Origin: Paramacrobiotus metropolitanus
Lineage: Eukaryota > Tardigrada > Eutardigrada > Parachela > Macrobiotidae
Assembly (NCBI RefSeq): GCF_019649055.1
Contig: NW_026570231.1
Coordinates: forward strand, 992,001 to 1,056,000
DNA length: 64,000 nt
Direction of reading: 5' to 3'
Part shown: positions 9,539 through 62,564 of the stretch, one piece after another
Position numbering within the stretch: the first letter of the stretch is position 1
Layout of the letters: every line of letters starts with the position of its first letter
The notes under the pieces: model-generated
What the model saw: the letters and a program-made list of their open reading frames with translations, nothing else
Databases searched by the model: none
What the model was told of the DNA's origin: nothing
Made by a program: the position numbers and the translations under genes

Positions 9539-12500
9539 TCAGATTTCGAATTCAGTTTCAGTTTCAGGAAAAAGTTCTTCTCAAAATCAGATACACATAC
9601 ACACTGGTTGCTAGTTACTGTACTGTAAGAGATTTGTGAAAATTAAAGTGAGTACTATAAGTGCACCTTTATTAGTGCGTGTACGTAGTAATGGTTCTAA
9701 TTAATTTTTAATTCTACGTACTCATAAAATCTTGGCTCTGAAATCCTTGCTTAGTGAATTGTAAAGTAGGCGCAAGACGTACCGTATACAATACAGTTCT
9801 GTTTTTCTGTAGACTACCTATGTGCAAGCATTTTTCAAACAAAAAAGGTTTTCTGCGGTGACGGAGGGAGCACTTCCCGCGTACTTTCTCAGTTTAACAA
9901 AGAAGGTTTTCTGCGGTGACGGAGGGAGCACTTCCCGTGTACTTCTCAGTTTAACAGAAAGAGACAAAAAATTTCAGAAAGTGTCAGAAAGAGACAGAAA
10001 ATTTTAACAGAAAATTTATTTCTGTTAAAATGTAAAGTACACGGGAAGTACTCCCGCCGACACCACGGAAAACCTTTTTTTGTTTAATAGATGCTTGCAT
10101 ACACAGCCTACAGCAGAAGTGTTGCATATGATATGTCTTGAGCCTACTTACAACTAAAAAACATATTTTATTACTAAAATGCTATAGTACTGAAAAGCGC
10201 AATCACTAGCTGCAAGTTAAGGTAATTAGAATACAAGCACAGTACTTAGTTGACAGTGACCTTTTCCCTTCGGTAATTTCTTTAAAAAGAATATGCGCAA
10301 GCCTTTTTAAAATAAAAGCCACAGCAATTATTAGTTAAGTATACCAGCAGTGTAAAACGCGCAGTTGTTGTTGTTGCATAAATATACAGCCTAGTCCTTA
10401 TAAAGTCCACTGCTTCAACAATAATTACAGTAACGGTAACTGCCTTTGTTTACCGTAGCAACAATGTGCTATTAAGCGCAGTAGCGCACTATTGTTAGGA
10501 ATATAGTGCTTGATTTTTGAAGATCGCGAAAGATAATATTGCTGTTACAACATCGAAACTAACGCGCAGTTGCTTTCGATTATTACTAAGAACAACAAGT
10601 TATGTTTCAGACTTTCAGGTTATATTCTGGGCAGGTAGCTAGCTATATAGGGTGTTGCGTTGTACCTAGAACCGTCGAAACTGAAGACATTAATTCAGCG
10701 GATGCGGTTTTACAGACTCATGATTGTAAGTTTTTGAATTTCAGATAGGCATATTTATTTCACTATACGCCCGAGCACAGTGACGGTTGCTTCCCGAATT
10801 CCAGATACTGCTCGAATCAGCGAGCTGAAAAATCCACCCAAAAACTTCATTCTGAACATTCGCGCCAAACTTTCCTGACCATGACGTCTTCATGCAGCAT
10901 GTTGAATGATGTCGATATCTCTACATAACTAGATGTTGCATACTGATTACTGCCATAAACATGTAAAACAGATCCTCAATGCCGTTTTATTCAAACTGGA
11001 ATAACGGTTTCAGGTATACGATTATATTGCATGCGAATTGGAATCCATCCCTAATTACACGCTTCGCTTTAAGCCATGATGAGAGTCGCCATTGTTGTTG
11101 AACGTCAAGCAAGTGCTCCAATGTTGTTGCTGTCTCAGCTAATCCTTTACGCACCTGTATCCCGGTTGTGCGCATAATTACGTAGATCCAAAGGGCGCAA
11201 GTAAAAATGATCTAATTAAGGTGCGCCAGGCTTTAATATCCGTATATGCCGCGGTACGTCCGGATTGGACTGCAGCGGTTGCCGGCGCAGAATAGGTAAG
11301 GCTATGCATCCGTCAAGCTGTGTCACCTTATAAATTTTATCCTCCATACGGGATCCGATTGCATATATATATATAACTAGATATATGATGGTTAAATTGG
11401 CTGTGTTTGCGTCATTGGAAAAAAGGCGTGAGTGTCAAAGGAAAATCGATGGTGTGTTCTTAAATCACGGTGGCCCCTGTCGTCACACATCATGTATACA
11501 CACACGGAGCCACAGAGCGCGGTACACAAAGTAGACTCCCATACAGCACATATCGTGGCGCGATCGGCAAATCTCCCAATGTGCGCACAGGATCACTGCA
11601 CATTTTCGTACTGATCCACATCCAGCAGATCCGCTTTCATAACATGTGATTCGCAGTAAGTAGAGCTAACTGTCTGGTTCTCGCGCGCGCACTCTTATGT
11701 TTCTCTCTCTCTCTTTCCTCTCTTTCTGTAGCGTAGTTCCCTAGCCGAGCGGGAGACGCACGGAGCCTAAGTATTCTGGATCAAGTATGATATGTTGACT
11801 GCGTCAATGGTAGCGTCGGCATAATAGTCTATAACTGCTGCCGATTAACCACAGCCTGTGGATTTTCTTAACAGACTTCATTATTATACGCCGCGTATTG
11901 TCCTCACGTAAATCAAAATACAGAAGGGTTATTTTCTCCTTCAAAACATTTTTATCCGCGCAATGGGAGAAGACACACTGAAAAAGATCATGATGCGCTG
12001 TATCTGTTGGATGCATTATAATGCTTATAATAGGAGTGCGCGTGTGTTGATGGCCTGATTTGACAACACGTCCGCCGGTAAAGAGGTAGGTGGCACAAAA
12101 GATATCGTCCTATGTGGCAACGGATTCTTCCTTAAGCTGTCGGCCACGGTTATCCCCGCACCGTAAATGTATCCTTCTGATCCGTATTGATAAAAATAAC
12201 TGAAAGAAGTAGATGTAGCCTTAATCAGGGTTAAATGTAGCGCTTTTCCATGGTTAATCTTTGCTCCATATGGTAGCAGGAGATTGGTGCCTGTATCGTG
12301 TTAGCCCATATGCACATGCTGTGGTATAGCATTTGAAACTTGCGCCAAGATGATCGTGAGAATGGTCGGCGTAGCTAAAGTGGCTGCGATCGACCTGAAT
12401 TTTTGCGGCGAGCAACAGCTGGCAGTGAGATGGATTTTAAAATTAGTCGCCAACTGTTTCCTGTTTTTCCGCCTCTGCCCGATAGCGTTCGCTGTGTGTA

Positions 12501-25902: not shown

Positions 25903-28900
25903 TTACTTTCTATGGACTCGCCACCACGTCGTATCCTTCCACACATCCAGCTCTTCCCGGTTGGGAGGCATGCGTTTGGGCCGGCTGCTGTAATACACAT
26001 GCCGGCTTTCCGGTGGACCCATTTCGTAATTATGTCGTACGCGTTTCGTTGTCTTTTTCAACTTATTTTTGTATGCTGCACTGTAGCGTTTAATCACTTC
26101 TTCTTCGTCATCCGACTGGGAGAGTCGCTGGTACGAACTACCGGAACCATTGCGACGGGCTTCCTGACCTTCCAGGATCTGCAGGTCGTCCTGCGACGAC
26201 ATAATGTTGGCTTTCCGCCGACTGGCGGAGGAGCCATCCAGCAGACCGGCGTCCACATAAACGCCGGAGTCACTGTCATGAGGAATAAACGGTGGACTGG
26301 AAAATTGTGCATCCTAAAAAATAATCAATAAATAAACTGGCGGAACATTTTGACATTACAGCGCAGTCATAAATATTGAAACCACTTGCAGCTTGTAAAA
26401 AAAGCATTGCAAAAATATTAATAGTATTTAGCGTTACCCTTTGTAAGTTTTGCTCTGATACCGATTTTCCGTCCAATGCAACTTCCTGCTGTAGAAGCGG
26501 TTGGTTAGAGATTCCCGGCGAGCCGGTTTCGTCCCGATCGTCTCGCACAACGGTATCATTGTTCATGGCACTGCCCTCCGCTTTCAAATCGTCTTGCTCG
26601 CTGTCGCGAACACGAGTTTCTTGTTGCAGATTCTCGTAGACAAATTCTTCTCGCGGTGAGTTGTGCTCGCTCTGGATGCTCTCTTTTCGCACAGCTTCCG
26701 CTAAATGCTCGCCAGTGTCGTTACCGCGCGGCAGCGCTTCCGACCGCATTAACACACCGGAACTAGCAGGTTCACTTTCTGCGTTGTCACTACGCACAAT
26801 GGTTTCCGTGAACACTTCACCATCGCCAGGTTTGTTAGCAAAGAAGTCAGCCACGTCATCGTCATCGATTGCCATCGTACGCGGCAGCGAATCCGGGCGT
26901 ACAACGGTTTCGGATGCATCGTTGTCGGCGAACACTTTGTCCGTTTCCTCCGTGTCGTTTCCGTTTTGCGGGGTGGTAGCTTCGGATCGCAAGCCTTCGG
27001 TGCTGCCCATCCCATCTTCGGCTATACTAGTAGTCTCCATAATTTTGTTCATACTGTCCCGCGAATGGAATGCACTGCGCTTCTTCAACAAGGATCGCTT
27101 CTACAGATACAAAATAATAGCAGTGAATTAACCACGACCTTTGTATTAACCGAGTTCTTTAAAACATCATTAATTTTGCTAAGGTATTCCTTACTCGAGG
27201 GCTTTGCTCTAAGGATGCATTGTTATCCACGGCCAAAAGGGATTGACTTGGCTTCTGCAACGAAATCGTATTCGAGTATGAACTATGCAAACACTGGGTG
27301 ACCTTTACTATTTTGCTGGTACACCAGTAATTCGTATGCAAATTCCAATACAGCAATACACAAATGTATTATACATATGCCATCATACATATACATACAT
27401 TCACCATGTACATATACATTCACCATTCCTTTGATCACAACGAAATCGCTATAATAATAATTATTAGTAAACTTACCCGACTGGATGGTGTTGCATCGTC
27501 TGTGCTGTCGTTCTTCTGCAACTGGAAGCTGTCCAATGTACTCGTGCGCGAGAAGAACGGCTGCGTGCGATCCAGCATGTCATCAATGCTATCCCTTTCC
27601 CCCAGCGCACCGAATTCTTTAATAGCTATTTCTCGTTGAACTTCGGAAGGCTTACGGTCCAAACCACCATCGGGCAGATTCTGCAAAAAGCATCGTTCGT
27701 GATAGCCCATTATAATTAAGAATCTTTTCGTCAGTCTCATCTCGATCTGTACGTCTTTGTAAGTCCATAGATTTACCATTTTAATGGATTCCGCCATGAT
27801 CTTCTCCTTTAACTCTTCCTTGGTGTCATACATTTCCTCGTCCGAACTGGCTTGGCGCGAATAAAACGCCGGCTGCACTTTGACAATTTCATTAATGACG
27901 TCATCATGGGCATCCGCTTCCGTTGTCGTTAGCTTCCGGTCCTTCAGCGACATTTGCGATCCCCCCAGGTTTTTTAGTTCTTCTTCTTCATTGGATTTCA
28001 GGCTTTGCCGGTCTTCCGGACTGGCTTGTCCGTTGCGCTCGGTATCTGACAGTTCCTCATCCAACGGCTCAATGGAGCTAACGTTGCCGCGCTGTTCCAG
28101 AACATAGGCCGGCTGGCGTTGGATAGATGTGATCTGGTCGCTTTGATCATCGTCATCGCTGCTTTCGTCGTCTTTGCCCTTGCCCTCCCGCTGATCTACC
28201 GATGCCTGTTGTGCCTCAATGTCTTTTAGTTGCGAAAGGTCAACTTCGCGTTCGAACTCCACGTCCGAGCTGGACTCCTTGTAGAAACGGGATGTCTGCT
28301 CCATAACATCATCGAAGCTATCCCGGAATCCCATACCTGATTAAATGTACAACCTGATTAATTATATGGCTACATGCATTGTTAACTTGTCAATGTGAGG
28401 TTTTCTTATCAACAGAAATTGTAGTTTGGTTTTGGAAGACATCTATGTATTCTTACAGTTAATAGGTTTTCTCAGCAGTAGGTCTCTGTTCTCCTATATA
28501 AGTCAGCACGCAGTAAGCGTTTTCATTACTTTGTATTGCTTTTATAAGAGTAACGTCTCCGTTATAAATTGGTGAGTAGCTGGTGCTGTGATGAGCGGGA
28601 AAAGCAATCAGCTATGATATACACGCTGCCATGTAATCAGGACTATTACCGATTTATTTTAAGACAATCATTACATACCTAGTCGACGCAGTTCATTATC
28701 ATCGAAACGAGTATCCGTGCCGGCGACCGGTGAATTCATGCTATACAGCGGATCCTTGTCGTAGCTCCTATGTGGCAGTGTATCGACATCCATTCCGTCG
28801 TCTTCCATAACCAGACTCTCCGTTCGCGGGATAGCCAGCCATTCGCGTGTTTCACTGGAGGCGCGTCTAATGCTGCTCTGCGCTTCCAGGTGATACTTTC

Positions 28901-31900
28901 GTGCTGATAATTTAGCAGCCGCCAGTTGTTTGACCGAGTTGGAAGGAGACGGCGGCAACTCGTATTCCGTGCGCAGTAATTCCGGCTCGACACTGCCAAT
29001 GCTGTCTTTATTGACCGGTCGGATTTGGTCTTCTTCCAGCATCGGTTCCGTTCGCTGTAATGTTCCTTCCTGAATTTCGGTCTTCTGCATAGGTACATCA
29101 TCATCCAGTACCCTGGCTTCTGGAATATCATCTCGCACCTGGGTTTCGGATATAGTCATAAAACTGTTGGATTCTTCGGTAATCGGTTCTCCTGGTACAC
29201 GTTCGGCTTCCGTTGCTTCTACACAACGTAAAAAATTAGAAAAGCGGCTTTGTAAAAGCTTCAATGAATCTTAACAGATTATCTGATACTAAGTATTAAT
29301 TTATATCATATTGCTCTGCAAATAAATACGGCAAAAAATAATGAAACGGCTCGATTGTAAAAGTTTTGACCAATCGTGACCTTTACCAAGTTTTTGGGTC
29401 CGAGAGAAGGTTGATCCCTGCGAAGGGCTAAGCGCCCTCATGGATGCTTCTTCCGCTAATTCCTTCTCTGTGAAAGTTGGTACCTCCACTTCTTCCCAGG
29501 TGTCCACATCGTTGCCGCTTTTATCGACCGACTGAACTTTGGTTTCAGTGACAACTTCGCGAATAGTCTCCTTGTTCTCGACTTCTCTACTCATGTTGTC
29601 AGTTTGCGGCAGAATGCGAGAGCGGTCATTCAAGCCTTTTTCGAGATCCGGCTCCATGGCTGAGGGGGCGGGACGGGGCGCGTTGGGATCCAGAGAAGAG
29701 CCTTCCGGTTTCAGCTGTTGATAGCCGCCCACGGGTAGAGGGGCAATGGACGAATTGGGCTGCCGTGGACTGCGCTGGGCAGCTCGTATTAAGGCAACCT
29801 CAGGTGCGCTGTACTGCCTGTTATATTAAACACAGATTGCAAAATTTGTCCCATGAAATTGATTTAGGATTGTCGCCACAACAGGACAAATTCCACAATT
29901 AATTATATTAACACCTACAATGCAATACAAGTGCAATCTTTTGGTTAAGTCGGGGTCAAGTGTTTGATATACATTGTATACCTATAACACTAAATTTAGC
30001 AGCCGCTTTGCTTATAACATTCGAAGTTTACAACTACAGTTTTCTGCAAGTTTTGCATACGGCGCTTAAGATGACAATTTCACATTTCGGTAATATATAG
30101 CTTGATAGGTATGAACTGGAAATAAAGGCGAAACGACACTACGAAAACTTCCATAGGTAAGAATTAAGATTAACATTTACTGCAAAATTAAAGGGCAAAC
30201 TTACTCTTCTTTGCCACAATTCCGACAGCAACAGTATATCATGCAGGCAAGGAGAAACAGGACGAGCAGGCAAGCGAGGATAATAGCAATAATCAGTAAT
30301 ATGACTGCAAAAGTGAAAACAGCGTAAAATACACGTTGGTTACTTGTTATATTGTCCTGGAGGATACGATGCGATACGATTTCCTACTATTAAGTAAGAT
30401 CCTCTGCATATCGCTTTAGACTGCGTACAATTAACTAAAGGTCATTTTGACTCTTGGGTAGCCCCAAAACGTTACTTACAATACGTTTTATATAGGCAAA
30501 GATTGGCGAAAACGAAATTTTCCGGCGGGCATCTGCAAATATAGACGATTGTCGTCATCAACCTTAATAAAAGAAAGAATGACATGAAATTTATCTTACG
30601 TAATGATGGTTAAGTTGACAGGGACGCTGGCCGCAATAAGGGATGAATTCACACAATTCCTCCCAGGAAATGCCGGATTCGTATCGGTGTATCCAGGCCG
30701 GCATACGCAAGTAAAAGCGCCGAAAGTGTTCTGGCAATTAGCATTTACGCCGCAGGCCATTTGGTTAATATCGCATTCATTAATATCTGTAAAGACTTGA
30801 GATAATTTTGATTCGGTGCAGGTAAAAACTGCGCTGCCGTTGTGATATCGACAGTCTTTTGTGCCTCTACTCGTATAAGTGGAGCGGAAGAGGTCAGGAT
30901 TTACGTGTTTCCTTTTGGTATTTTCGACCTGACCATTAATGACGCACGCATTAATTTACTTAGACCGGGATTGTATCCCAGGGCATCTATGATTCTGCAC
31001 GACGTTCAACTATTAATTTTATGAATCAAAACAGGTAGTTTCTACATTTACAAAAGCCATGATTTTTGTACGTATATAGTCCGTTTTCATACGCAGCCAA
31101 TCTCGGCATGTATCTTACCCCCAACAGAGGGCGGCTGAAAAAAGGTTTGAGTTCTCCCCGATGCGTCCGGCGGAGCCAGACGCACTTTGAGCCCACCGGC
31201 ATCTCCTCCAACGGCGCCTTGGTTGTTGTTTAGCGCGGTACCCAGCGCCGTGGCCAGTTCCGTTGGCAAAACGTTATCGTCGCGTGCAGGTACGAAAGAC
31301 AGGCCGACGTTCGTCACCACACTTCCGGGGGAAAAGCTGCGGGGGTTACACGAACCGGGACTATACTGGCCAGCTGATAAGCCGGATTTGTTCAGTAACT
31401 GCTCCATCTGTAATGTTACATCATGGTCACACAACGCCTTTCGTTCACGTACGCAAATACATATGCACTACAATATAGTTCTCCTGCAACTGCATTCTGT
31501 TGATAGCAGTAATTTATTTCGGCATTTCTCTACACTGTCGGTTTCAGTTCTTTTATGCCAGTACTTGAGCAAGGTCTGGCTGATTGTTAAAATTTAATAT
31601 CATATATGCATATTACTGTACAAAATAGCGAAATGCAAATATTTATATTTATGCAGACATAATACTCTGTACTTACTTGATAGCACACAACGACCGCTAA
31701 CTGTTGAGTGGTGGGATTTGAGAAATTAAACATGTAGGACTGAAATAGCAACGGTTTCCCGCACAATTCAGCCATAGTTAGTCCAACGCTGTACTGGACG
31801 GATGCTAAAAAGTAAAAACACGCATACATATTTTAACAGTGACTTTGATTATCATAATGGTGTAACAATCGCGTGGTGCCCACCTTGGCATTTTCCTGTA

Positions 31901-34900
31901 ATAGACGTGCGAGTTGAGCCCGCCAGGCAATCACACCGGCCCGCCACACTATTGCACCGCTCCGTTGCATTGACATCGCAGCTCTTATCACAGCTCTTAA
32001 TATTTTGCTGCAGAGTGGCGTAGGCTTTTCTGAATAATTCTGGAAAGCAAGGGTACATGACTTCAAATTGGATGCCGGTATCGTTGACAACCACCGGACT
32101 GTCGGTAACGGTCCGCTGTGGTCCGGTGGGAAAATTCAAGAATACCCCCGTTGGATAGGTTAATGGATTAATTTGCGGAGGCAGCGTGCTAGTCTGTATG
32201 GACGGTGGCGACGAATTTGTCGAGCTTATTTGCGGACGGTTTGAACTTGAGGTGTTTACGGCAAGCGTGGGCGGTTTTGTTGTTGGGGAGAGTGTGGTGA
32301 ACGCGACTGTTGTTCCCATAGAACTGCCGGTCCCGGCATCCATCTCGTCAGATCGGGAGCTCGGAGCGGTTGGTCGTGCTGAGTTGTGAATATCCGTCAT
32401 ACTGCCGCGCGTAATACCATTACCAACAGTATTATTATTATTGCCGCTGGTATTATTGCCCAAAGAAATACTACTGGCATTGCGTCGCAGCGTGGAAAGG
32501 TTTAAAAACACGGGAATGATTGTGTTATTATTACTGCCGCCATGGTCGGCTATCGCTAGCGCTACGGTTGTGGTTTCTGGTAGTATCAGAGGTTCATTCA
32601 TCCGAACACCGCCGGTCGTCATCGGCGACAAGGACGACATCCGCACTGTGTTACTGTTTGACGCAACATTGCTAGCTGAACTTTTTACTGTACTAGATTC
32701 CAGGATGCTGGTGACCTTTGTCGGTGTACCGGCTTCCTGGATTGCATTTGCGGCTGCATTCGGTGAAAGAGGGTGCGATGTACCAGCGATACTTGTAATG
32801 GTGTCATTGTCTATTTCGGTGCCGGTCGTATCCTTTGTGTACGTGGTTGGGAGTGTCAGTGTGGTCAGGGTCGGTCGCGAAGGTCGGTAGATGGTGAAAT
32901 AGTCCGGCTGTGGTGGCACGGGACGGCTTGTAGTGGAGGGCGTTGTTTCTGGCAAGCTGCCATTTCTATAGCGTGATGTCGTAGTAGTCCCGGTGGGTAA
33001 TGTGGTCATTGTGGTGTCGGTGACATCGGTAATATTGGCAGTCAGCCCGATTCCCGTTAACGTCATACCTCGGACAGTCGACCCATTGATCACGCTGTTA
33101 ATGTAGTCTGCAATTGTAGTGTTACTGTTCACCGCAGAGGAATTTGCAGATGAAAATGGCGGTACATTTGAAATGGTTAGACCGGCAATGTTGAATCGGG
33201 ATGCGGTTACTGTTGTAGTGTCTAAATGTTGCTCGTTAGACTGTGGGGTAACAATTTCAATTCCACTCTGTGGCCTTCCCTGTGTGGACATCGTTGACCG
33301 AGATACCGATATCGACGGTGTGGGCAATGTAGAAATTACTAAAGTTTGTTGTCTTCCGCCAGTACTTGAAGTGACTGAGGGGGTAAGGTTGGTGCGATTG
33401 GTCGATGACGAGGATTCAATGCCACCCTGCTTTGCTGGCGCATTGGAAATGTTTGAGAAAATCTGGTTGGTTGCGAGAGAATCCAGTGGGACGTTCCCTA
33501 TGGGATTACTTGTGGTAGAAGATGATTGAGCTTTGAACCGACTTAATGCATCCAAGACAGCCTGCCAGTCACGATCACTGCTTGTTCCCGCTTTTTGTGA
33601 ATTCTGATTGTTGGTTGCAGCCGACGAGTTTGGTGACCTTTCATTATGTGCGCTGTTAATCTGACTGGTGTTGGATTTATCTGATCTGGTATTAATTTGG
33701 CTGCTCGGACTGAACACTCCCGCAATAGTCGCACCTGGACGGAACTGGGAGACCCCTGCATTGGATTCGTTGGTGTTAGGGTTTGCCGTATTACGTTGTT
33801 GAAGGTCAACCCGGTCGTCCACAGATGGCAGGGACAGATTGCTGTGATTACTGCTGTTGTACGTGCGACTGACGGATCGGTTAGGATCGCGGCCTGTTTC
33901 ACACAATGAAGAAAACTTGCTTTACTTTCCAAAATGTAGCTTATAAGTTAATACAAGACACAAACGCCGGCGTGAAACCAAACGAATATGTTCTAGAAGT
34001 ACTTGAATTTTACTGCATGCGTTAGTGCAATTTTGCCAACAGCAAACTTTTTAAATACATAAACAAATTATTTACGCATTTACATAATTAAGAAACTGTC
34101 AATATTAATCATCAAAATGCTGGTCAGTTCTTCGAAAGATTTAGCTTGAACGGGCAATTGCATTCATTGTTTAAACACTTGATATTAATCAGTTAAACTG
34201 TATTTAACAGCAACGTACTACATCGCTAATAATATAAACTCACCGCAACTCATATTTTTTGGATTGTCGTTTTTTGGAGTTTATATATCTCTAAAAATTA
34301 CGGTTCATATGCGCGCATTATTTCTCAGAGGTGTCATATATAAATAATATAACCATTGACGGCCACTTAATGGCGTTACAAAAAAGGTAATTAATTCAGT
34401 AAATTAGATAAATACAATTAAGCGCTACTTATAAGATGTACCTTCCGATTGTTGCGCAGCGTTTTCAGTAGGGCCGAGAGTTACAAACTCAGGACGAATG
34501 CAGTCCTCACAGTTAGGAAGGACAACGTAGGGATTTGATTGATTCAAGTAATTGCTTAATGGGCTTAATCCTGAATTACTGGAGCGTACGCTCCATGTTG
34601 AGCCTCCGGGGTATACGAGGATATCAACGGATGCCGGCAGATTACTGGCGTTCAAACTGGCCTATAACATCATAAACCATCATACATGCACACGTATAAC
34701 TGGATTACTGACAATTGTTTATAGCCAATTTAGCTTCCTTTCAATTATCGTTTCCAGCGGTATGTAAGTACCGTGCAACATTGCAGTGACTTGTACCAAA
34801 TGCGTAAGAAAATTGACTAAACTAGTTTCGTACCGTAGAGATAACGGAGAAGAGCCCGAACTGAAGTATTTCTATTAATAATAGTCGCATGGTACCGTTG

Positions 34901-37900
34901 TGAATACTTCGCCGACTGCTGTACATAATACTGTGAGATATGCACAGGCCAACCGGGTAGTATGAAGTGCCAGTACAATTAATAATGGAAACTTTCTACA
35001 CTACAGATCATGCTGGTCCGGAATAAGGCAAACTGTGCGCAAAAATTATTCAAAATTTGAAAATTGACAGTATGCGTAAGAAAATAGAAGAGCTCGCATG
35101 TGCGCACTGACATTGGCAACGCTGCTATATAGCTATCGCAGCCGATCATCTGATGCACAATGTCTGCATGCGCATGGATGGAAAAATGAACGCGCAACAT
35201 GTCAGGAGGTGAACATACAAGAATCTCCTGCCCTTTACCACCTCTCCCGAATCAATTGAGATAAACAATTGCAGAGATTTGCCTATTTATTTTCCATTCA
35301 TAGTATTGATTGCGAGATGGCCACACGATGCGCTGCGTAATGATCTGGGAGGGCGGTGAATAATTCATGGCTGTTGGCTTATGTAACTGCAGATAGCCGT
35401 AGCAAATGGCTTTTAAAGGGATAATGGGGTATAATCATAAAATTGCATTTAATAACGTATTTCCTCCCCTATTATGTGCGTTTTTACATAAATTCAAGTC
35501 TGAAAGAGAGATCTCATTAATAAACGCGAACACCAACTGACACGAGCGATGGTCCATGCAAAACATTTTAAATATAGCTCGATCTCTAATATTATGACCT
35601 TTTCCCTGTACGTCTAGTTCGTCCACGTCTACCTCTCTCTACTTGTAATCTAATTTCGTTAATTTATGGCTATGTTTCAAGAATTTTAAAAAAAATAGCC
35701 ATATTGTTTCTGTTTTCAAATTCGTATCCTCGTTTCAAGACCGGCAATCTGTACGAACAACAGCCAGTTCGCAAACAGTGTTCGAGTGTGACATTTACGG
35801 GGGTAGCACCTAGTATTTGGCTCGCTCTTCCATTCTCGGTTATATGGGACTGAATCTGCTTACGATCACTATACCGCAGTTGTTATCTGATTATACAGAG
35901 TATAGCCTAGATTGTCGATTTTATTTTTATTGAAATACGTACTCTTAATGCATTGGCAGCATTAACTGGAGTTCCGGTGAACCCATCCATTCGAATAAGA
36001 TCGTCGATGACCTTCTGTGACAGCGCGGAGAGATTTGATGGTACTGAAAAACAAATGCGAAGTTTACTAACCTTATCACCTAGAGTAGCGAAACTGATAA
36101 CTTAAAAAACCAGCTGCAGGCACACCACGTTTTCTTATTAGAACACCCTCATTAATATTGGGAGTAAAATGATTATTTTTTAATACATATCTAAAAAAAA
36201 TCAATTATTTCCGATCTTTGATTACAACGCGGGCAATCGCAATCACTGCGAAAGTTGTTATTCTTATTGTTTTTTACACTCTGAATTCTTACAAAACAGT
36301 CTTAAGCACTTGACTTCCTGCATGTTGCATTCCTAAAACTTCGATGCTTTTACCTGCCCAGTGCGCACTACTTGCGCGTGCAAGCCTTCAACGATCACTT
36401 AAACGTAAAAAGCGTTATAATGTTCCGGGACTTACTTATCACGCAGGTATTCCCATCCCAAAAATATCCACCGTTGCACTTGCAAATATATCCCGGTGCC
36501 GTATCCGTACAATCAGCATGATCACCGCACTGAAAGCGCGGCCAGTCAACCGCGAAGGAGCATTCATCAATAAATTCCGGCACTTCATCCGACCCATCGC
36601 CACAGTCCTCATGTCCATCCAAGAGTTTCTCGGGACGAATACACGCACCGCGATTAGCGCACAGAAACATTCGGACCGGCGCATTCAGGCAGCTTATAGG
36701 GAGCGTCGTGTTGGCAGTGATCTTATACGCCATCAGAGCGCCTCCTGTGGCGTTCCAGATCTTTATCGGCGTGATAATGCTACCCGGTGCCCAGGCCGTC
36801 ACGTGGTCCTCTGGATTGCTCAACGATCCCGGTTTGCGGGATGTTGATTGCGTTGGCATATAACCGAACATCGCGCCGTCTTCCGTTACTCCATTGAAAC
36901 CTTTCAAAAAGAAATCTGAATAAACTTTTTCGATTACGACTTCAATGTTCCGCAAAATTTATGTACCACAAGAAACTGTAAAATTACTCTGTATCAAGTT
37001 ATCAACAGAGCATTTAATTGTACAAATAATAGTTAATTTAACGTGCAACAGCAGCGGTTACACTTTCAGCTGCCCTTTTCGTTGAAAAATAAAACGTTTT
37101 CCATAAGCGCCCGATAAACGTGAAATGTAGAGATAAAACACTGCAGCTGTGTTACAAGGTCGATTATTTATAATTAATCTCAGAGTATACACCTCTGGAA
37201 TTGTTTGCAGCAGGAAACTGCGGAATTGTAAGCACAAGATTGTACCTTGAGATGCTTGTAGATCCGTAAGTTTCGATTTGCTCGCGTCACTTTGCTCGTA
37301 GTTGACAGAGTACGGCGTTGAAGTATTTATCACCAGTTGTTTATCCTTCGATGTTGTCACAACAAATTTGGGCAGTTTTTCGAGGAATTCAGCCACGTGT
37401 CGATACTGGGAAGTCGCCGCATTTTCATCCACACCGGCTTCTGTCGTATTGGCGAGCTCCACTGTCACCCAACCTGTCCCATTAGCAGGCGAATTAGCAT
37501 GCGTAGTAGGTATGAAATTAGCGGGTAAATTGCTTAAGATTTGCAGTTGTGGTGGTGTCGATGGTCGAACAGCGCTGGCACGATCCACGCTGCCATTGGC
37601 GAATAGTCCTAAGCACCATACTTGACCCGACTCATTGATCATTAGCGATCGACTGCGACAAACAATGCGCGCACTCGGTACAATTTGAATCAGGCCGGCG
37701 GTTGTGGTGTGTTTTTTACTACTGGCCGCCGGTGAATCTGACTCCTCAATGTTGCGGTATTCTCTAACGGTGACCTTTGACGGATGCCGGCTGGTAAGAC
37801 GAGCGCCCCACAAAGCACTGGCTGATATCGAGGCATTACCTTCGTTTTCCGGTTGCGCCAGCAGCCGCGGTGTAGTCCTTTCAAGTACGTTTGTGCCCAA

Positions 37901-38322
37901 GTCATGCAGAGAAGTGGCGTTTATGTAATGATCCATGGCAGCGGTGGTGTCGGTGCGCCATGTTTGGATAATTAGTGGTTTGGCTGATGTGACGAACTGC
38001 GGCATGTTGAGCGGCGCGGGCTGACAGGTTTCCCCCGGGCCAAAATACCCACTACGACACCGGCACGCGTAACCGTCCGGCTGCGGGATACAGTCGGCGT
38101 AGGCTGAACAGCGAAAATCCGGGAAATATGGTGCATAATCACAGATATTGACGCCGGATGATTCGTCTGATCCGTCCGGACAATCCTTGATGCCGTCGTG
38201 CACGCGCTCCGGCGGTATACAGCCGTTGTCGGCCACGCAGTGGAATGCGTGGGGATAAATAAGGCAATTGAAGCTTGTTATTCGATTGAATAGACGAGGT
38301 GGATCGCGCAATTGAGCAAGAC
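25903..38322 (-). CDS. Large LDLa/EGF/mucin/SEA transmembrane protein, MUA-3/MUP-4-like in layout (5' end missing)
   Basis: Sixteen minus-strand exons in transcript order: 38322-37246, 36915-36436, 36043-35943, 34661-34442, 33893-31884, 31804-31677, 31407-31119, 30786-30600, 30532-30480, 30304-30205, 29817-29387, 29218-28679, 28336-27777, 27680-27477, 27100-26438 and 26313-25903. They sum in frame to 2484 residues once one base from a missing 5' exon is counted. Order: LDLa plus EGF-like (about 15-95); a long unassigned region; a second LDLa plus EGF (about 440-519); a 670-residue Ser/Thr/Asn-rich stretch; a Cys cluster; a SEA-like domain with the cleavage-type motif GSVV; a calcium-binding EGF (DINEC...); one membrane helix near 1515-1540 (LLIIAIILACLLVLFLLACM) capped by CCCRNC; and an acidic, Ser-rich tail of about 960 residues. 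The layout recalls nematode MUA-3/MUP-4, which tie epidermal hemidesmosomes to cuticle, but EGFs are few and I see no vWA domain. The signal-peptide exon was not found. Confidence 0.75.
27364..27427. repeat. ATACAT-rich simple repeat in an intron
   Basis: The stretch is an irregular run of CATACATA and TTCACCAT units within the intron at 27101-27476. CATTCACCAT occurs twice (27397-27406 and 27417-27426). It is low-complexity and probably neutral. Confidence 0.5.
31884..33893 (-). other. Mucin-like 2.0-kb exon inside the LDLa/EGF/SEA gene
   Basis: This single exon codes for about 670 residues dominated by Ser, Thr and Asn with few charged or aromatic residues. It looks like an O-glycosylated stalk; many N-x-S/T sites are also present (for example NNTT, NSNT and NGST types). 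The block ends with a Cys-rich segment (CDKSCDVNATERC...RCDCLAG) that resembles a compact EGF. The composition makes the antisense strand open over long stretches, which produces false ORFs. Confidence 0.75.
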
Positions 38323-39199
38323 CTATCAACAAACAGGTGAATCATACCACAGGCACAGTATATACTTTTCATGATCCAAACTCCAAAGCCTCAAATATTG
38401 CAGTTACAGTATACTGGATATGGTTACGCATGAGGAAGCCTACTACCGTAATTATAATATTGGTGGTGTGCAAGACGCAAACATATTCGGATTCGTACTA
38501 TCAGAGATTACGTTATTGATTCCAATTTGTGATTTCTATTAAACTTAAAAAATCCACATCTTTCTCGCTCTTTGCGAATGAGTTTGTCATCTTTGCCCTG
38601 ATGTAAAAAAGCGGAGTACTCGCATAGTTTTTAGCGAGAAACGGTGCACTTATTTATCACTTTAACTTCCGGGCTCTCTTAAATAAATTCTAGCAAATAT
38701 ATAAATATCTCTTCTAATTCTTTTTATTACAAAATACTAATGCTTATGCTTTCACGAAGATATAGTACGAATAATGCCGATCAGTGATTTAACTGAAGAA
38801 TGCGAAACAATTTACATCATGAAAATGATTAAATTTATATATGGGCTGGAGCAGCGCGCTACAACGATTTGCATAAGCTGCTTTCGCAGCGTCTTTAATA
38901 ATTTATATTTCAATGGCCACTAATTAGGTAAGTACGAATGTACGGACTTCTATATTTTGAAAAACAGAAGCATGTATGGTTCTTAAATTCTTATTAGAGA
39001 ATTAAATCGCAGGGCGAAGCTAGGGCAATCGATTTGGTTCACGATATCAGGCCAACGAACGGTGATTGCGCAATTTGAAGGGCACTTTTAAAGGATAAGT
39101 TTAGGACAAACAACTGACGCATATTTTCGCTGTTGTTTTTTTATTTCTTAAAATTAATAATGTTTTGAGTTATTCGTCATATTGAAATTTTGCCGCAGG
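38323..39199. other. Interval that should hold the 5' exon of the LDLa/EGF/SEA gene
   Basis: Phase demands an upstream exon ending with one base of a Gly codon. I looked for a minus-strand ATG with a signal peptide and a donor and found none convincing. A TATATAAAT near 38836-38844 (minus-strand promoter orientation) could be a TATA box. The first exon might instead lie beyond the neighbouring gene. Confidence 0.3.
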
Positions 39200-40303
39200 T
39201 CAGGCGTTGAGCAAATCTTTTTTGTTCGCATTGACGCCGGTGCAAGTGATAAAAGCGGATTGCCCGAGCTCTGCCTTCTTCTCGCATCTGTAATTCTGCA
39301 TTAGATGTGTAAATTAATACGTCTGCGGATACACTGTAATAATAGCCTGATTTTGGATATTAGATAATCCGATAAAGTTGTATATAAGCAAAGGATTCTT
39401 CAATAATATTTTCGTTAGCTCTCTTGCTATCGTTCTTTTTTTGCTACCGGGTTGACCAACGCCTTGGAGTACTAGTTTGCAGAAATGCCAGCAATTAAAC
39501 ATAGCAGCCATTTTAAAGTACCACTTCAACTGTCCACTTCACTTTTTCTGATTGAGATGTGTAACCCACATCCACACGATTTTCCCGTAATTTGCTCATT
39601 ACTGCCATTATCGCCCCCAGCTAGTAAGTACTGCATGATATGAATACTGACGTATGCATGACTTCACTTCACCGGAGGCTATATGCGTACGTAATCATTA
39701 CAAAAACAGTTATAATTTAATTTTATTTAGGCTGTTATTTACTCTAATTATATCCAATACGATACATAACGAAATACAAAAACCAACTCTTTATTCTGAC
39801 GTCCTGTCTAACGAAAGTTTCCCTATTAAATAACTGTTTAAGGAAATGCATGCAAATATATTAAAAGGTGGACACATTTGCTGGAGTACAACTACAAATA
39901 AATAAGCAAAACTCAAGCAAAAAATTCCGCAAAAGTTTTCAAGCATCCATCAGCAGAAAGTTTTATAATTTTTTACTGCATATGGTATATGCAGTAAGTA
40001 TTGTAAGTAGGGCAACTTATGACTGCGAGTTTCCGGTAAAGAGTAGCGATACATATTGCCTGCTCGCTTAGCGCTTATTAAAATATTGCTATATTTTGGC
40101 AAATAGATCTCGGAATACATCCTACGCACCTGTCCCGGTGAGCAAGGATTCCAAAATGATTGCGATAATTACACAGCGATCCATAGATAATTGTGCCAGC
40201 ATACGATTGACGACCACCGTCAGCTACATATCCACATACTGCCGTATCTTCCTTGTGGTTTATAATTAGCCAAGAACAAACTTTTCCAGGTAGACAAATT
40301 ATA
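39200..40303 (-). CDS. Kazal-like secreted protein, 3' two exons
   Basis: Two minus-strand exons join in phase 2: about 40303-40130 and 39287-39200, ending in TGA. The peptide contains CLPGKVCSW, then AVCGYVADGGRQSY, then YGSLCNYRNHF, RDRCEKKAELGQSAFITC and a short tail. The order C, VCG-x-DG, Y, C, C, C follows the Kazal protease-inhibitor fold, with longer spacings than the vertebrate consensus. Kazal domains block serine proteases outside the cell. The start and signal peptide are missing: the 5' boundary at 40303 is only one possible acceptor and I could not find the first exon between 40304 and 42345. It might also be an N-terminal exon pair of another transcript, but the in-frame stop argues for an independent small gene. 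Confidence 0.5.
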
Positions 40304-42345
40304 CTTTCCAGCCTTCCCGCGTCTCACTTTTCCCAAGATAAATTTTGCAACAGCGGTAGACCCCGATCGATCAGTACACATTACGAAGGTTTTATTATAT
40401 TATCACTGTGTTAGATAACACGTACTGTAGGTAATTATGTCCCATCACAGCAAGAAACTTATTGTGCTTAAATCACTTATATCATGAGTATGTGGTGAAA
40501 GACGCTGTTTGCTGGGAAGGACCAGGCGGACAGGTAGGTGATATGATCCATAATTTTATTTTCCGTGCGGTGATCTCACCATGTTTGTGGATAAAAACCC
40601 AATCGGTGAACTTGATTGAGCCTGGGTGCAGATGCGGAAACGACGTCCCTTTACACAGACCCCGACCTGCCTAACGTAAGCGCATATCCACCATACCGGC
40701 TAAAAGGGTTAGCGTTTGTATCAACAGTGGGAAAGGTTCACGGACGTGACGATCATAACTACGTTGTTCAGGGGATGAATACCGGCATTGAAAGGTGCGC
40801 GAATATTGATAAAAACGCCAGCCGATCGAAGGACTCTAAGGTGCACATGCAGGGATGAGGGAGAGCGTTACGTGGGCCTTCATCAAATCTTTATACGCCA
40901 GTTATATCAACGCATACTGAGCGCAGCAGCAGGCAGCTGTACCTGCTCACCGGATCATTCAAAGATTCTGTTTGACGATGGCACGCACCCACTGACAAGG
41001 ATGATGGCTCGCTGTTTAGCCTTCGATTTATGCTCTGGCTTTGTTAAGAGAATTGCTATCCCGCTTATCATGAGTACCGCGCTGGCGCTTGTGCTGGACT
41101 ATATATATACTTATGCGGCGTATATATGGCCCCATGATGCGTAATGTGCATGCGTCTGCATATAAGGCCAACGATGCATTACGCAGCCACAGCCTGTCGA
41201 TAAAATGTTATGGTTTGAAATAATTCATGGTGAATAAAAGTGGATGCTGTACGTTGGTAAAACAATGTGCTTCCGGAAAATATTGATTTCGGATAAGGTA
41301 GCTCTGTAAATACACTGAAAGGGTTGTGCGGCACTGCGGTAATCGTAACTGGAGATATCTACATACAACTGATACAAGTATTGTTATGGGCTGTTTGTGG
41401 TTAGGCGCAAGGATCTTCATAACAGTTACTAACTTTGCATTAATATTTGCGTACATCACGGAGAGAGTTTTAACCTGCATAATGTTGAGTTAATACAAAC
41501 TTTTATCACCCTTTCTAGGAAAATTTTGTCAAACGCATGCATAACCAAAGTTGTACTGCAGTTTTGTGCCTGGAAGCTCTTTACTAATTCAAATTCAAAT
41601 GAACAGTTACAATGAGCGCAAACGAAAAACTTTTAATTTCTGGTACTATTAGGTGTACCAAAACAAACGAGCCAGATGAGGAAGAACACATGCGCGAGAT
41701 GCGCCAAAAAATTTTGATAATATTAATGTTGGCAAAGCCTTATATTTATAAAAATGTTACGTAGCTTTGAACTACAGTACATATCTGTAGCTTGCCGATA
41801 TCTTTACAGTTCGACTTTCTTAATGTTAAAAACTGGACATTAAAAATATATTAATCTTGTATCTGCGATATGCGGATAATGATGCTCAAATTTTAATCAG
41901 TCGTTTCTGAAACTATTTTAACGAATCGAAGACAAATCAAACGAATGAAAGATAAATTTTAAGTATCGAACTACAACATGATATGATCAACCCGGTCTAG
42001 CAAAGCCAGCCTAATTATAATTATTAACCTGACTGCTTAATTATTTTGCAGCAGATTAAGCATGAAAATTCCCTTACCAATTTTTGGACTACTGTACAGT
42101 TTAATGTCCGACAACCCCAACGACCAAATTTGAAAATTCAATAAAAAATAATGTTAACAGCTTTCACTCTTAAGAAGGTAAGGGTTGATTTTTTCACCCC
42201 TTCCAGATCAGTCTAATGAGTGCGTAACATCGACTGTAAATCTGATCACTTGTATACGTAAGTTATAATAGCACCCATGTCAATTAACAGCAAAGTAATA
42301 GTGCCATCGTTCTTCATATAAAACAACTCAGTGCGAAGAAAGTTA
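40304..42345. other. Interval upstream of the Kazal-like gene
   Basis: About 2 kb with no supported exon. The missing first exon or exons of the Kazal-like gene are expected here. The run TATATATATA near 41100-41109 lies about 40 bases before a minus-strand ATG, but the peptide it opens (MISGIAILLTKPEH) is not a clear signal sequence. Stops are frequent in every frame. Confidence 0.35.
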
Positions 42346-44373
42346 CTACTGTTCTTCGGATCCGGACTGGATCGGATGTGAATGCCACGCTGGTCGTTCA
42401 CTGTCGTTACCGGAGTCCGCACTGCAGGCTAATCGTTTCTGGCATACTCCCTGAAATATGACAGCAAAATTATGCGCTTAGATTTTACATCTGACAAGGA
42501 GCGCAAGACGGATATGTATGCTACTACTAACATAGTGTACAGATACCTAACGTAATAAACATCTGCATATTTCTAGCCTAAATTTGTTTAACCATCATTT
42601 AAAAAGTAAGTGAATCAGGGTACAAGCCGGTGTTAATTAACATTGCGTATTGCTGTACAAGCTTGTTGGGAAAAGGTCATGTATTGGGTACTGAATAATT
42701 GTACCTCGCAGCATCCAATGAGAGAATGCAAATCCTGACCAATTCGGCACTTGGAACCTTGGCAGCTGTAGCAATCCCTATCTTCTTGGCATTCTACGAC
42801 ATTTAAAGTTTGGAAACAATTGAATTTTAGAGCAATAAACCTTTGTGCACACGAATCAGTTACTGCATATTACATATTAATTACTGCATACTGCATATTA
42901 GATTTAATTAGGTGTCACAGTCACGTCACTGCATAAAATTAACAACACGTACTCAGCCAGCAACGCTTTCCCGGCACGGAAGTTCGCTTTTCTTGGCATT
43001 TGAAAGAGAGGTCACTCACTCCTTGGAGGCAATCAGATTCGGAGTTGCACGGCTGGAATGGAATGCACGTGTAGAGACCGTTCAAAATTCAAACAACTAG
43101 TTTCAGGCTTTAACAATGGCAGTTGTGATACGGCTGCTGATAAAATATATAATGTGTACAAATTAATCTAACAGTAAAACTGGTAAGCCGACACTTCTCG
43201 CAGTCTTTCACCCGAAATTACAAAAAAACTTACTTTTGGACCAGAAAATTGGCAGACATCATTGTGGCATCGATACAAAGAGCGGCAATCGGAATCGCTG
43301 GAGCAAGTGCCATCTGCAATACAGTTTGTCGATGGAACAAACTAATGATTATAAATATCTATATATATTTCTCGACGCCCTACAAAATACAGTTTGTAAA
43401 CCTTCTGTAAAAAGTGAAGGTAATATTGCAATAAAAATTAATCCCAAAGATAAATGTGTTTTTACAATCATAATATCACTAAATTCCATAAATTTTCCCA
43501 CTCAGCTTTTTCGTAACTGTTGCTTTTTCACAAAACATGTACTTACCGAGGATACGCAAGTTTTAGAAACTAGAACGAAACGCACTAAAACAGTTTTTAT
43601 TGAATTTTTGTGACTCGCACAACACCCATTAAGATCCAAAATCTCATAAGAGAGTATTGAAAAACATCGACACCGATCATTTTTGTTTAAAATGCACACC
43701 AGCAACCATAATTATAACAATAACAAACACCAACATCAGAATCATAAAACCTAAATACGCCAAAATTTAATTTCTTCGATGTAAGACATTTTGCACGCAG
43801 GTGCATTTAATTGAACACTGAATACATCAGTACAGCAGTACATACACATAATTTCCAGTTAATAACTACTAACAGGAATACCAGCGTTATCTTGTATTAA
43901 TACACCAAGAATAACTTTGTCAAAAAGTTTTCAGCGAATGCCTGTTTTACAGTAAAAGCTTTAATTTTGAAAGCCGGACAGTTATCAGTAATTACCATGG
44001 CTTTTCTCTATTTTACAGCCTCAAATGGCCAACTTTAAATATGCTAAGTGTTATAGAAAATTTTTCCTATGGACAATAACTAACGCGAAAATATTTACTA
44101 ACATGCGTGCAACTTACAAGTAAGTTCCATGGTTGGCGCTCCACGCGGCTTGCAGAGTCGCAGTTTGGTGTCGCACACCGGTGCTTGCAGGTCGTGTTCG
44201 CAGTCCCGATCCTTGCTGCAGTACTGCATAGCATTTCCATGGCTGGTCAGAAGCTTCACAACGGCATCCTTCGCGCCGGTGGAATAATCCCCATGGTTCT
44301 TGCTCCACTCTTTGTCCAGCTTCGCGCAAAAGGCAATGCCCACCGACACCAACAACGACAGAAGGATCTTCAT
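42346..44373 (-). CDS. Small secreted cysteine-rich protein with repeated CxxDxDC modules
   Basis: Exon 1 (44373-44118) starts with a clear signal peptide, MKILLSLLVSVGIAFCA. It then encodes CSKDRDC...CDTKLRLCKP. Exon 2 (43313-43234) adds CSSDSDCRSLYRCHNDVC in the correct phase. Exon 3 begins at 43052 with PCNSESDC. Two endings are possible. Either exon 3 reads on through a CWLSTCC terminus to a stop at 42939-42941, or it is spliced at GTGA|GTGACC (phase 1) to an exon at about 42801-42712 with CQEDRDCYSCQGSKC...GCCE, then to one at about 42451 that ends at 42346. The second path keeps phase. Each exon carries one C-x(2)-[DE]-x-[DS]-C-like motif, so the protein looks built by exon duplication. 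EB-type or Dickkopf-N-like modules have similar spacing. The function is unknown; it is likely extracellular. Confidence 0.65.
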
Positions 44374-54533: not shown

Positions 54534-54963
54534 AGCATTAATTTTCACGAAGAAAGCCTGTCAACAATCATGTTGCTTTCGAGTCTTGATAGACGAGTTT
54601 CTGCGCTTTCATGAGCGAAAAAATGAAATCAACAACAAACCAATCCTTTCCATTTATTGGAACTTCCGGTCGAATCTCCATTGGGCGTCGGTTTCCTTCG
54701 CTACGTATCCACTATCCACGCGAAATGCTGACAGGCATCGCTGGCAAGTTGGCGGCGAAATTCATTTTGATTTATGATAAATCATCAAAATGATTTATGA
54801 TAAATCATCATCGTTTTGATTTATGATAAATCATCAAAATGAATTTATGTTGTAACTGTTGTTCATTTGGGTTCGGGTTTTTATTAATCCCAGTTTTCTC
54901 TCCAGGCCACCAGATTTTGTGAAGCTTAGCTGTATCTGTCACTTTTTCTAGACAGAGGACCGA
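54534..54963. promoter_or_regulatory. 430-bp divergent promoter of GFOD and DNAJC24 genes
   Basis: The two start codons face away from each other across this short interval. It contains three near-identical palindromic units at 54768-54836, listed separately. It must serve as promoter for both genes unless one has a distant noncoding first exon. Confidence 0.5.
54768..54836. repeat. Three copies of a 20-mer with inverted TGATTTAT half sites
   Basis: TGATTTATGATAAATCATCA occurs exactly at 54768-54787, 54791-54810 and 54817-54836. Each copy contains TGATTTAT and, one base on, ATAAATCA, its reverse complement. That makes six oriented half sites in 69 bases. TGATTTAT is a classic PBX/Extradenticle-HOX composite site (established knowledge). 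Spacing (23 and 26 bases) suggests recent local duplication or a multimerised binding site. Confidence 0.75.
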
Positions 54964-59816: not shown

Positions 59817-62564
59817 TCGGGTGAGAAGGAGATGCTGTGGATGTGCCTTGGTATTCCCGTTTATAATTGCGTTGCTCGATATTTCAGCTCGTGCATGATC
59901 CGGTTGGCTGCATTTGGATCCCCTATGGATTAATAAAATAAAATTGTTTTGAAGGCTTCAGATTTCAGTAATAAACTACTGTGGAAGCGCGCTATGATGT
60001 CACAGAAAGGGTTGAAATCTTTTTTGCTAGTTTCAGGTTTTGAGTACGGTTGTTTTGGTGCAAGGTTTTCCATTACAAAGTGTTTGTTTCTATTTGTGAT
60101 AGTTCAGCAAAAAAATGTTTTTGATTGAAAATCTGTACGATCTTTACAAATTAAGAGTTACTGTAGGTTATAAAAAGTGCTCACGGTGCGTGATCGCAGT
60201 GACCGCTGTTGGTGTTTAATACGTTGCGAGTAAGGTGATGGTTAAACTTAAAACCACTTTATACATACTATAAAGTTTATAGTGCGTACTGTATACAGCA
60301 AAACTGAAATATCGTATAAACCGGTCGGTTATTATACCGATAAATAGAAATTTAACCCTTATTGAATACTGTGCCGCTAATATTAATAATAGTTATACTG
60401 TTACAAATACAAGTACTTAAACTCTTCTGGTCGACCTTGCGGCTTGCAGCCGCCTAAAGCATTTCAATTTTCAGTTACCTACTTCTTTTAACTTTTAAGT
60501 ACTTACTTATTTTTAGAGTTTTCTGATCACGCTACCGGGCTACCTGCTCAGCTGCCGGCTACTTCGAAATGCTAGGCTGACGTTAGGCGGGTCGACGGCG
60601 TCACAAAGCAGGTACTTTCGCGCTTCAATGCAGTCTGCTGTCACCAGTGCCAGTGCTTTGTCTGCACACTAGTGAACAGCTGATTGAACCAGCCGTCAAA
60701 ATGATCTTTGTTCATTTGTCCGCGATTTCCAACACCTCCAGATTTTAAAAACGTGCGTTAGCTGCTTAGCAGGTTATTTAAAACGTGCATATTTATTTGT
60801 CCCAATTGTTTATTGCGGCCTTGAACATTCAAGCATTAAGGTAAGTGGGTTTTTAACAAGCTTTGAAGCCTTGCAGTTTTTAGACAGAAGTGCGTAGATT
60901 CTCATAGTTTTCTGTGTACTTTAATTTATCCAAAATTTGACCAAAAACTAACTTCTTGGTTCCGTACGCAGCCGGTACGCTCAACAGATTCAAGAGCTTT
61001 TACTTCTGATGGTGAGATGGGTGCGAATTTGGTACTGTACAGTAATTACTAATATCTGCGCCTCACCCCAGTGCAATACGGTTTTTTTATCTTGGACATA
61101 GAATTTTGAAGAGGTGGTTGTGACGTGATACTTATTACAGGTGCTGTAACTTCCAGTTTCCACCGGTAAAAAAAGAATTTTGAATGCTAACCATAGCCAT
61201 ACACTTAACCATAGCAACTTAACCATGTCGGTAATGATTTACAACTTACCAAGTAAGCTTTAATACAGCTTATTAAACGCTTTCAATTACCGTTACGAGA
61301 CTTACGACGTTTCGACTTTCGAGTAACAGGAGTAAATTATATTCGCTATGTTTGAGTCAGGATTTAGCTTTTTTTATGTTGGTGATCTTGCGTTAAACAT
61401 CGATGCTTATTGGCGGTAACTTTGATGTCGCGAACCCAAAACATGGGAGGAATTCAGGGTATCGACTTTACGCACAGGCGGTGCAGCACTGTGCGCCAGC
61501 ACAGCAGCACTGTGCGCCAGCACAGTACTCATCAGAATTCAGAGACATCTGTAGACTGCAGACTGTAGAGCACCTGAACATTAATAATTACCCTGCTGCT
61601 TAGCTCGTTTTCGAAATTAGTATGACTATACGCTGAAATATTATATCGTTCCTTAGTTTCCTAGATCATTTTAGATAAGCCATTCAGCATAATGCAGTAC
61701 TCCATAAAATTTAATGAAAAATCAGGGCCTGGCAAAGTTGGTCGTTTCATGATGTGTACAATGTGTACGGTACATATACCGTTTAAATAGTACGTGAACA
61801 GACCATGATCGTATGCCGTATGGTGACAGATCGTTTGGTCCGTAATTCGTAGTTGTTCGGACTCTGGTCAGAATGCACCCTACTCGACTTTGCAATCACT
61901 AAATTTCGAAAAGATTTTGCGTAAAAGAAAAACGTCCAGTCCTCCACATATTCTTGAGCTTCGTTTTTTTAAGCGTTATAAGCATAAAAGAAATGAACAC
62001 TTCTTGCGTGGCGGTTTGCCATGTTGAATAAGCCAATAAGGACTGCCTGCTAACGAGACGATCTCTCACATGAGGGGTGAACCGGCAGATGGCGTTAGTG
62101 GTTACGAAGGGCAATTTTGCGCGCCTTGCCGGCACTGCATAAGTTCCGGTACGCCACCACCGTACCGCCACTTTAACCAGATCCGTGTGCAAAATTTCTC
62201 GTATAAATAACAAATCGCTGATTTTTTAGGTTGTTGTAATGTTGTAGCGAAGATTTTTGGCATAGAAGTTAATTTTTTCGACATCTAAAAACTTCAAACG
62301 CAAGGCCCTGCTTGCTTTAGAGTTTGCGGAAAAACTATATTTATTTGGTATATTTATTTAGTAATTTGAAGAAGTTTTCGTGATTTATCGGTCGCGGATT
62401 TTTAAATTGTTTCGACCATCTGATACGGAGAGGGATGGTACGTGAGTTCCTGTATAGAACTGGAAAAGTGATTCTGTTGTTTTGGTTCTCCAAGTCCTGC
62501 GGTTTTTTTTGCGTTTTACCAACCGGAGAGAAGCGTAGTGACAATTTTTATACTGGTTTGCAGG
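59817..62564. other. Intergenic region with probable 5' leader exon of the 53BP1-like gene
   Basis: No coding block is supported. A strong donor (AAG|GTAAGTGGG) at 60841 and an acceptor (TTTGCAG at 62557-62563) directly before the 53BP1-like ATG suggest a noncoding first exon ending at 60840 and a 1.7-kb leader intron. A near-perfect palindrome ACTATAAAGTTTATAGT lies at about 60268-60284. A 21-bp tandem duplication is at 61483-61524. Confidence 0.45.
61483..61524. repeat. Tandem duplication of a 21-bp unit
   Basis: GCAGCACTGTGCGCCAGCAC is repeated head to tail with a period of 21 bases, giving two nearly identical copies. It sits in the putative leader intron of the 53BP1-like gene. The unit is GC-rich against an AT-rich background. 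Confidence 0.6.

Follow-up and report, generated by a model that had tools for sequence, protein, structure and literature searches.

Read on its minus strand, the 64,000-nucleotide window analysed here carries, from 40184 down to 25903, a gene that can be read as 18 exons encoding 2517 residues. Every one of its introns, which range from 67 to 1807 nt, is bounded by GT and AG, all phases are continuous, and the single stop codon is the terminal one. The sequence-only reading had recognized this gene in a shorter form, as 16 exons and 2484 residues beginning at 38322, and the rebuilt model moves its start to 40184. The frame of the model is the best of six by codon use in 16 of the 18 exons, with scores trained on 2023 codons from neighbouring genes; the exceptions are exon 11, which encodes the membrane helix and comes third, and exon 16, which has 60 nt and comes second, while exon 10 scores -0.005 and is still first of its six frames. 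Judged by its sequence the receptor gene is real, and its predicted product is a very large single-pass type I membrane protein that is a new combination of known parts. All ten neighbourhood ORFs compared with Pfam matched something: two are of the SGT1/ecdysoneless type (the second under the cut-off), two are of the RSE1/DDB1/CPSF1 type, one of which matches human SF3B3 with E 1.9e-138, and the others correspond to a chromodomain, fibronectin type III, a mitochondrial carrier, a GFO/IDH oxidoreductase, DnaJ (just under the cut-off) and a Sac domain. Such a gene set marks the DNA as eukaryotic and probably animal. Rfam at gathering scores gave no match and there were no tRNAs.

Exon 1 (40130..40184; this and all features of the gene that follow are on the minus strand) is a prediction. 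It is likely to supply the start codon and a signal peptide, MDRCVIIAIILESLLTGTG, in phase with exon 2. Within 4.7 kb upstream, 78 combinations of start and donor were scored and the best 25 by hydrophobicity were compared; among these 25 the donor of the chosen exon, at 5.9, is the top one, and its hydropathy of 2.73 is exceeded by a single combination, at 3.02, that has a poor donor (2.8). An alternative in-frame ATG further upstream, at 40202, is possible.

The head of the protein consists of two LDLa-EGF units, encoded at 38021..38272 and 36440..36697. Both LDLa modules are above the Pfam cut-off of 24.1 bits (30.4 for the first and 28.6 for the second) and each is followed by an EGF. The EGF_3 score is 27.2 bits for the first, just short of the cut-off of 28.5, and 30.8 for the second; in longer ORFs the corresponding scores are 24.8 and 28.4 bits, both just under. 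The two pairs had been called from the letters, as had the calcium-binding EGF and the single membrane helix with a Cys-rich inner edge that are described below, and all of these stand. Aligned over their full length the two units score 186 and are 43% identical, the mean of 1000 shuffles being 31.6 with a standard deviation of 6.2 and a maximum of 61, and because of this alignment the units are taken to have arisen by duplication. Each has ten Cys, and comparison with LRP1 for the first and VLDLR for the second reveals that both LDLa modules are without the fourth Cys and yet have the acidic calcium loop DxxxDCxDGSDE. With the canonical LDLa and EGF pairing, ten Cys per unit would be compatible with two disulfides in the LDLa and a complete EGF, the first Cys of the EGF standing at the place of the sixth LDLa Cys. 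The AlphaFold model of the two units is poor (pLDDT 45.5). The calcium loop is a likeness to the LDL receptor family, such as LRP2 and VLDLR, and LRP2 is the best PDB match for unit 2 (E 3.4e-6). In contrast to that family, of which a YWTD beta-propeller is a feature, the fourth LDLa Cys is missing, there is no Pfam match to the beta-propeller, and the tail is long and acidic. For unit 1 the best PDB match is the LDLa pair of glucosidase II beta (E 2.8e-5), a soluble ER enzyme subunit, and this likeness is confined to the LDLa part.

Spacer 1 occupies the rest of exon 2 (37246..38020) and continues into exon 3 (residues 120-445, thus 326 residues, with 2 Cys), and spacer 2, of 109 residues, is encoded by exons 4 and 5 (36043-35943 and 34661-34442, together spanning 34442..36043), which were placed by open frame and phases. 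Neither spacer has a Pfam match, for spacer 1 up to E 10, and neither comparison of the spacers with one another nor of each of them with the SEA-like region discussed below came out better than 5% of shuffles. An alignment of spacer 2 to residues 1201-1310, with a score of 43 reached by 0.8% of 500 shuffles, covers 19 residues and was set aside as low-complexity. The Pfam scans of spacers and tail, and the repeat searches of tail and stalk, were made on an earlier model in which exon 10 starts at 30562, with ten additional residues after residue 1511.

Beyond the spacers is a mucin-like stalk, residues 641-1245, recognized by its composition and lying within one 2010-nt exon (32077..33891). 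It had been described as rich in Ser, Thr and Asn, which it is (S+T 32.1%, N 9.9%), and as 670 residues long, where 605 are counted here; with 25 N-glycosylation sequons and no Cys, it is probably sugar-coated. Internal or tandem repeats are not above chance, the observed score being reached by 49 to 75 of 100 shuffles in four settings. After the stalk comes a Cys-rich piece (31888..32076), for which a pattern scan gives an EGF-type arrangement of Cys at residues 1274-1308 and Pfam gives sub-threshold matches only. The EGF count for the protein is accordingly three to four, three by Pfam (one just under the cut-off) and one by pattern.

Between this EGF-like piece and the last EGF is the motif FSPGSVV, and it is here that a SEA-like domain with a GSVV cleavage-type motif had been claimed. 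The SEA-like region, residues 1310-1446, has the first base of its first residue at 31884 in exon 6 and is otherwise encoded by exons 7 and 8 (31126..31804, with an intron at 31408-31676); it contains FSPGSVVTNVGLSF, and the Gly1380-Ser1381 bond of GSVV (31321..31326) is a candidate for self-cleavage. In published passages SEA domains are cleaved at GSVVV (PMC6954182, PMC9564314), compared with GSVVT here. Three overlapping queries of Pfam, with filters that suppress most hits above E 0.1, gave no SEA match, and neither did a search of PDB. With the MUC1 SEA domain the region has a local score of 40 (shuffle mean 26.0, reached by 1.0% of 2000), in an alignment that covers only FxPGSVV plus the following strand, and a global score reached by 1.8% of 1000 shuffles; when the whole ectodomain is searched with MUC1 SEA, the best local match is in the stalk and, at 45, is above the 40 of the SEA-like region. 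AlphaFold applied to exon 8 alone gave a pLDDT of 43.0, which is hardly a fair trial, given that exon 7 encodes the first strand. The claim thus keeps its motif and its position, but Pfam, PDB and the exon 8 model do not establish it; the SEA assignment is based on motif and place, and the fold is a candidate, not confirmed.

On the membrane side of this region, a calcium-binding EGF (30653..30786) matches Pfam EGF_CA with 38.5 bits, the cut-off being 27, and E 1.4e-9. Next is exon 10 (30480..30532), a juxtamembrane loop, CPPENFVFANLC, the acceptor of which was chosen among three AG sites between the two donors used; it is frame-keeping and leaves an intron of 67 nt. A start at 30562 would also be in frame, and 30532-30480 is preferred because the acceptor at 30562 needs an intron of 37 nt. 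Should an intron that short be possible, the two in-frame acceptors, 30532 and 30562, could give isoforms differing by LMTTIVYICR, ten mostly hydrophobic residues just outside the membrane. Exon 11 (30205..30304) encodes the one strong membrane helix, residues 1529-1551, with a hydropathy of 3.62, the runner-up being the N terminus at 1.83, and directly inside the helix is CCC..C.

The cytoplasmic tail starts within exon 11, at 30233, and exons 12-18 (25903..29817), in six of seven of which codon use puts the model frame first, encode most of it together with the stop codon. The sequence-only reading had it as a repetitive tail of 960 residues: large and acidic it is, with 965 residues (1553-2517), 20.4% of them acidic, and a net charge of -74, but its repetitiveness comes down to one weak motif in three to four copies. 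The best repeat pair scores 57 (shuffle mean 44.7, maximum 64 in 60 shuffles) and the sum of the top ten is 405, the shuffle maximum being 428. The motif, RDS-x-(D/N)-x-x-(M/L), is found by motif search as RDSFDDVMEQTSRF at residue 1890 (28284..28325), RDSIDDMLDRTQPF at residue 2101 (27555..27596) and RDSMNKIMETTSIA at residue 2174 (27020..27061), with a weaker fourth copy, AHDDVINEIVKVQPAFYSRQAS, at residue 2028 (27846..27911). Its best score was reached by 0, 1, 2 and 4 of 100 shuffles in four settings, chosen after looking, and for this reason the motif counts only as a lead. The last 60 residues (25906..26085) are basic by composition, with a net charge of +10 and no Pfam match, and a comparison of them with viral contigs, the one scan for relatives, found nothing. 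In the tail as a whole Pfam has sub-threshold matches only, with no domain above the cut-off, and a PDZ-type end is absent.

Published passages on other proteins describe cleaved SEA domains that stay together until force separates the halves (PMC6954182, with force separation also in PMC9564314 and PMC9578598), and SEA-type membrane mucins that are cut at SEA with the parts remaining associated (PMC9564314, PMC9578598). Our reading, held at a probability of about 0.45, is that the present protein is a single-pass anchor to matrix or glycocalyx with a breakable link. The head of two fused LDLa-EGF units, which has kept its calcium loop and may bind calcium, would bind a ligand belonging to the matrix or to an adjacent surface, and the probably sugar-coated stalk of 600 residues would keep it away from the cell. 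The membrane-adjacent SEA-like domain would probably be cut at Gly1380-Ser1381 with its halves held non-covalently, such that a strong pull would separate the outer part there and spare the membrane. The calcium-binding EGF and the Cys loop would connect it to the membrane helix, the CCC..C inner edge of which is possibly palmitoylated, and the 965-residue tail, acidic, probably disordered and basic at its end, would recruit cytoskeletal linkers via short motifs. Of this picture, the sequence itself gives the exon structure, the LDLa and EGF modules, the makeup of the stalk, the helix and the charge of the tail; the SEA fold and its cutting, glycosylation, calcium binding, ligands, tail partners and tissue are inferred. 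The anchor reading draws on the unbroken phases and frames from signal peptide to stop, the LDLa and EGF_CA matches, the duplicated head, the composition of stalk, helix and tail, and the position of FSPGSVV. Speaking against it are the lack of a SEA profile match, GSVVT in place of GSVVV, the better match of MUC1 SEA in the stalk, and a tail with neither a recognizable Pfam domain nor a PDZ end.

The order of stalk, EGF-like piece, SEA-like region with GSVV, EGF and one helix in a type I protein also resembles that of SEA-type mucins (MUC3, MUC12, MUC17 and MUC13, with MUC1 for the SEA domain), and the stalk is Ser/Thr-rich as theirs is. SEA-type membrane mucins have such a layout of EGFs, including one adjoining the helix, and their cytoplasmic tails are short. 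The protein could then be a barrier mucin with no anchoring duty, its stalk being the glycocalyx and its SEA-like domain serving to shed it, and this is an unlikely alternative. Unlike those mucins, it has two LDLa-EGF units in front, a stalk without tandem repeats, a SEA domain that is a candidate only, and an acidic tail of 965 residues that is far longer than theirs. It also lacks the PDZ-type end that mucins of the MUC3 cluster are described as having in PMC9578598.

The position of the SEA-like region next to the membrane and the great length of the tail would suit a force-triggered signalling receptor as well, in which, after separation at SEA, the tail would be set free inside the cell. 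Notch works by such force-triggered release of its tail. Here the cleavage is putative and, within the tail, Pfam recognizes no domain known from signalling, and we regard a signalling receptor of this kind as improbable.

Nematode MUA-3 and MUP-4 carry a large number of MUA-3-type EGF repeats, and MUA-3 contains LDLa. With them the protein shares its overall build, that of a large type I protein with EGFs, possibly SEA, a single helix and an extensive tail, and two possibilities had been offered, a relative of theirs or a separate protein built along the same lines. The likeness in build is borne out. The kinship is not: with Pfam EGF_Mua-3 the score is 13.4 bits where the cut-off is 27, the EGFs are only three or four, and Pfam finds no von Willebrand A domain in the exons. 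Nor is one found, in three frames each and at E up to 0.1, in 38323-43000 or 33900-36042, which cover 3.6 kb within the three largest introns and, upstream of exon 1, 2.8 kb; the other introns are of less than 400 nt each. The mucin-like stalk is a further difference from MUA-3 and MUP-4. A filarial MUP-4 orthologue has a von Willebrand A domain alongside EGF and SEA (PMC10187950), and a review terms MUP-4 and MUA-3 matrilin-like and gives their proposed function (PMC11304992). Because the search for a von Willebrand A domain came up empty, the gene is not filed under MUA-3/MUP-4, and a diverged orthologue tying cuticle to cytoskeleton at hemidesmosome-like sites is more improbable still than a signalling receptor. 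The receptor may nevertheless work as MUA-3 and MUP-4 do, with matrix outside, cytoskeleton inside and a yielding link between; a role at the cuticle is conjecture. In the open-licence literature MUA-3, MUP-4 and 'SEA domain' were not found together and, by title and start of abstract, none of the matches listed describes a protein of this kind. That the model fuses two neighbouring genes, with outer part and tail separate, is very improbable: exons 10 and 11, which form the junction, are short and weak in codon use, but the chosen donors give chained phases and GT-AG throughout, and exon 11, with the helix, is flanked by splice signals.

A wider proposal, speculative and unlikely, is that an invertebrate put together the LDLa-EGF head, the mucin stalk and a self-cutting juxtamembrane SEA domain as a matrix anchor of separate origin from both vertebrate SEA mucins and nematode MUA-3/MUP-4, with a reduced LDLa-EGF of ten Cys, in which the fourth LDLa Cys is gone and one Cys is shared at the joint, and with a long acidic tail, the RDSx(D/N) motif of which docks the cytoskeleton. 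According to PMC9578598, SEA-type membrane mucins emerged in vertebrates. Should the SEA domain prove real and the host an invertebrate, there would be a membrane-mucin-like build outside vertebrates, and a candidate for a tie from surface to matrix that does without a MUA-3/MUP-4 receptor.

Elsewhere in the window, the minus strand at 42300-44370 likely encodes a small secreted Cys-rich protein, with a signal peptide, MKILLSLLVSVGIAFC, in the ORF and, read by eye, more pieces with C..DxDC spacing downstream. Short tandem repeats occur at 9838-9960 (58 bp), 54768-54849 (23 bp) and 61483-61525 (21 bp), the last of which is a perfect two-copy array.
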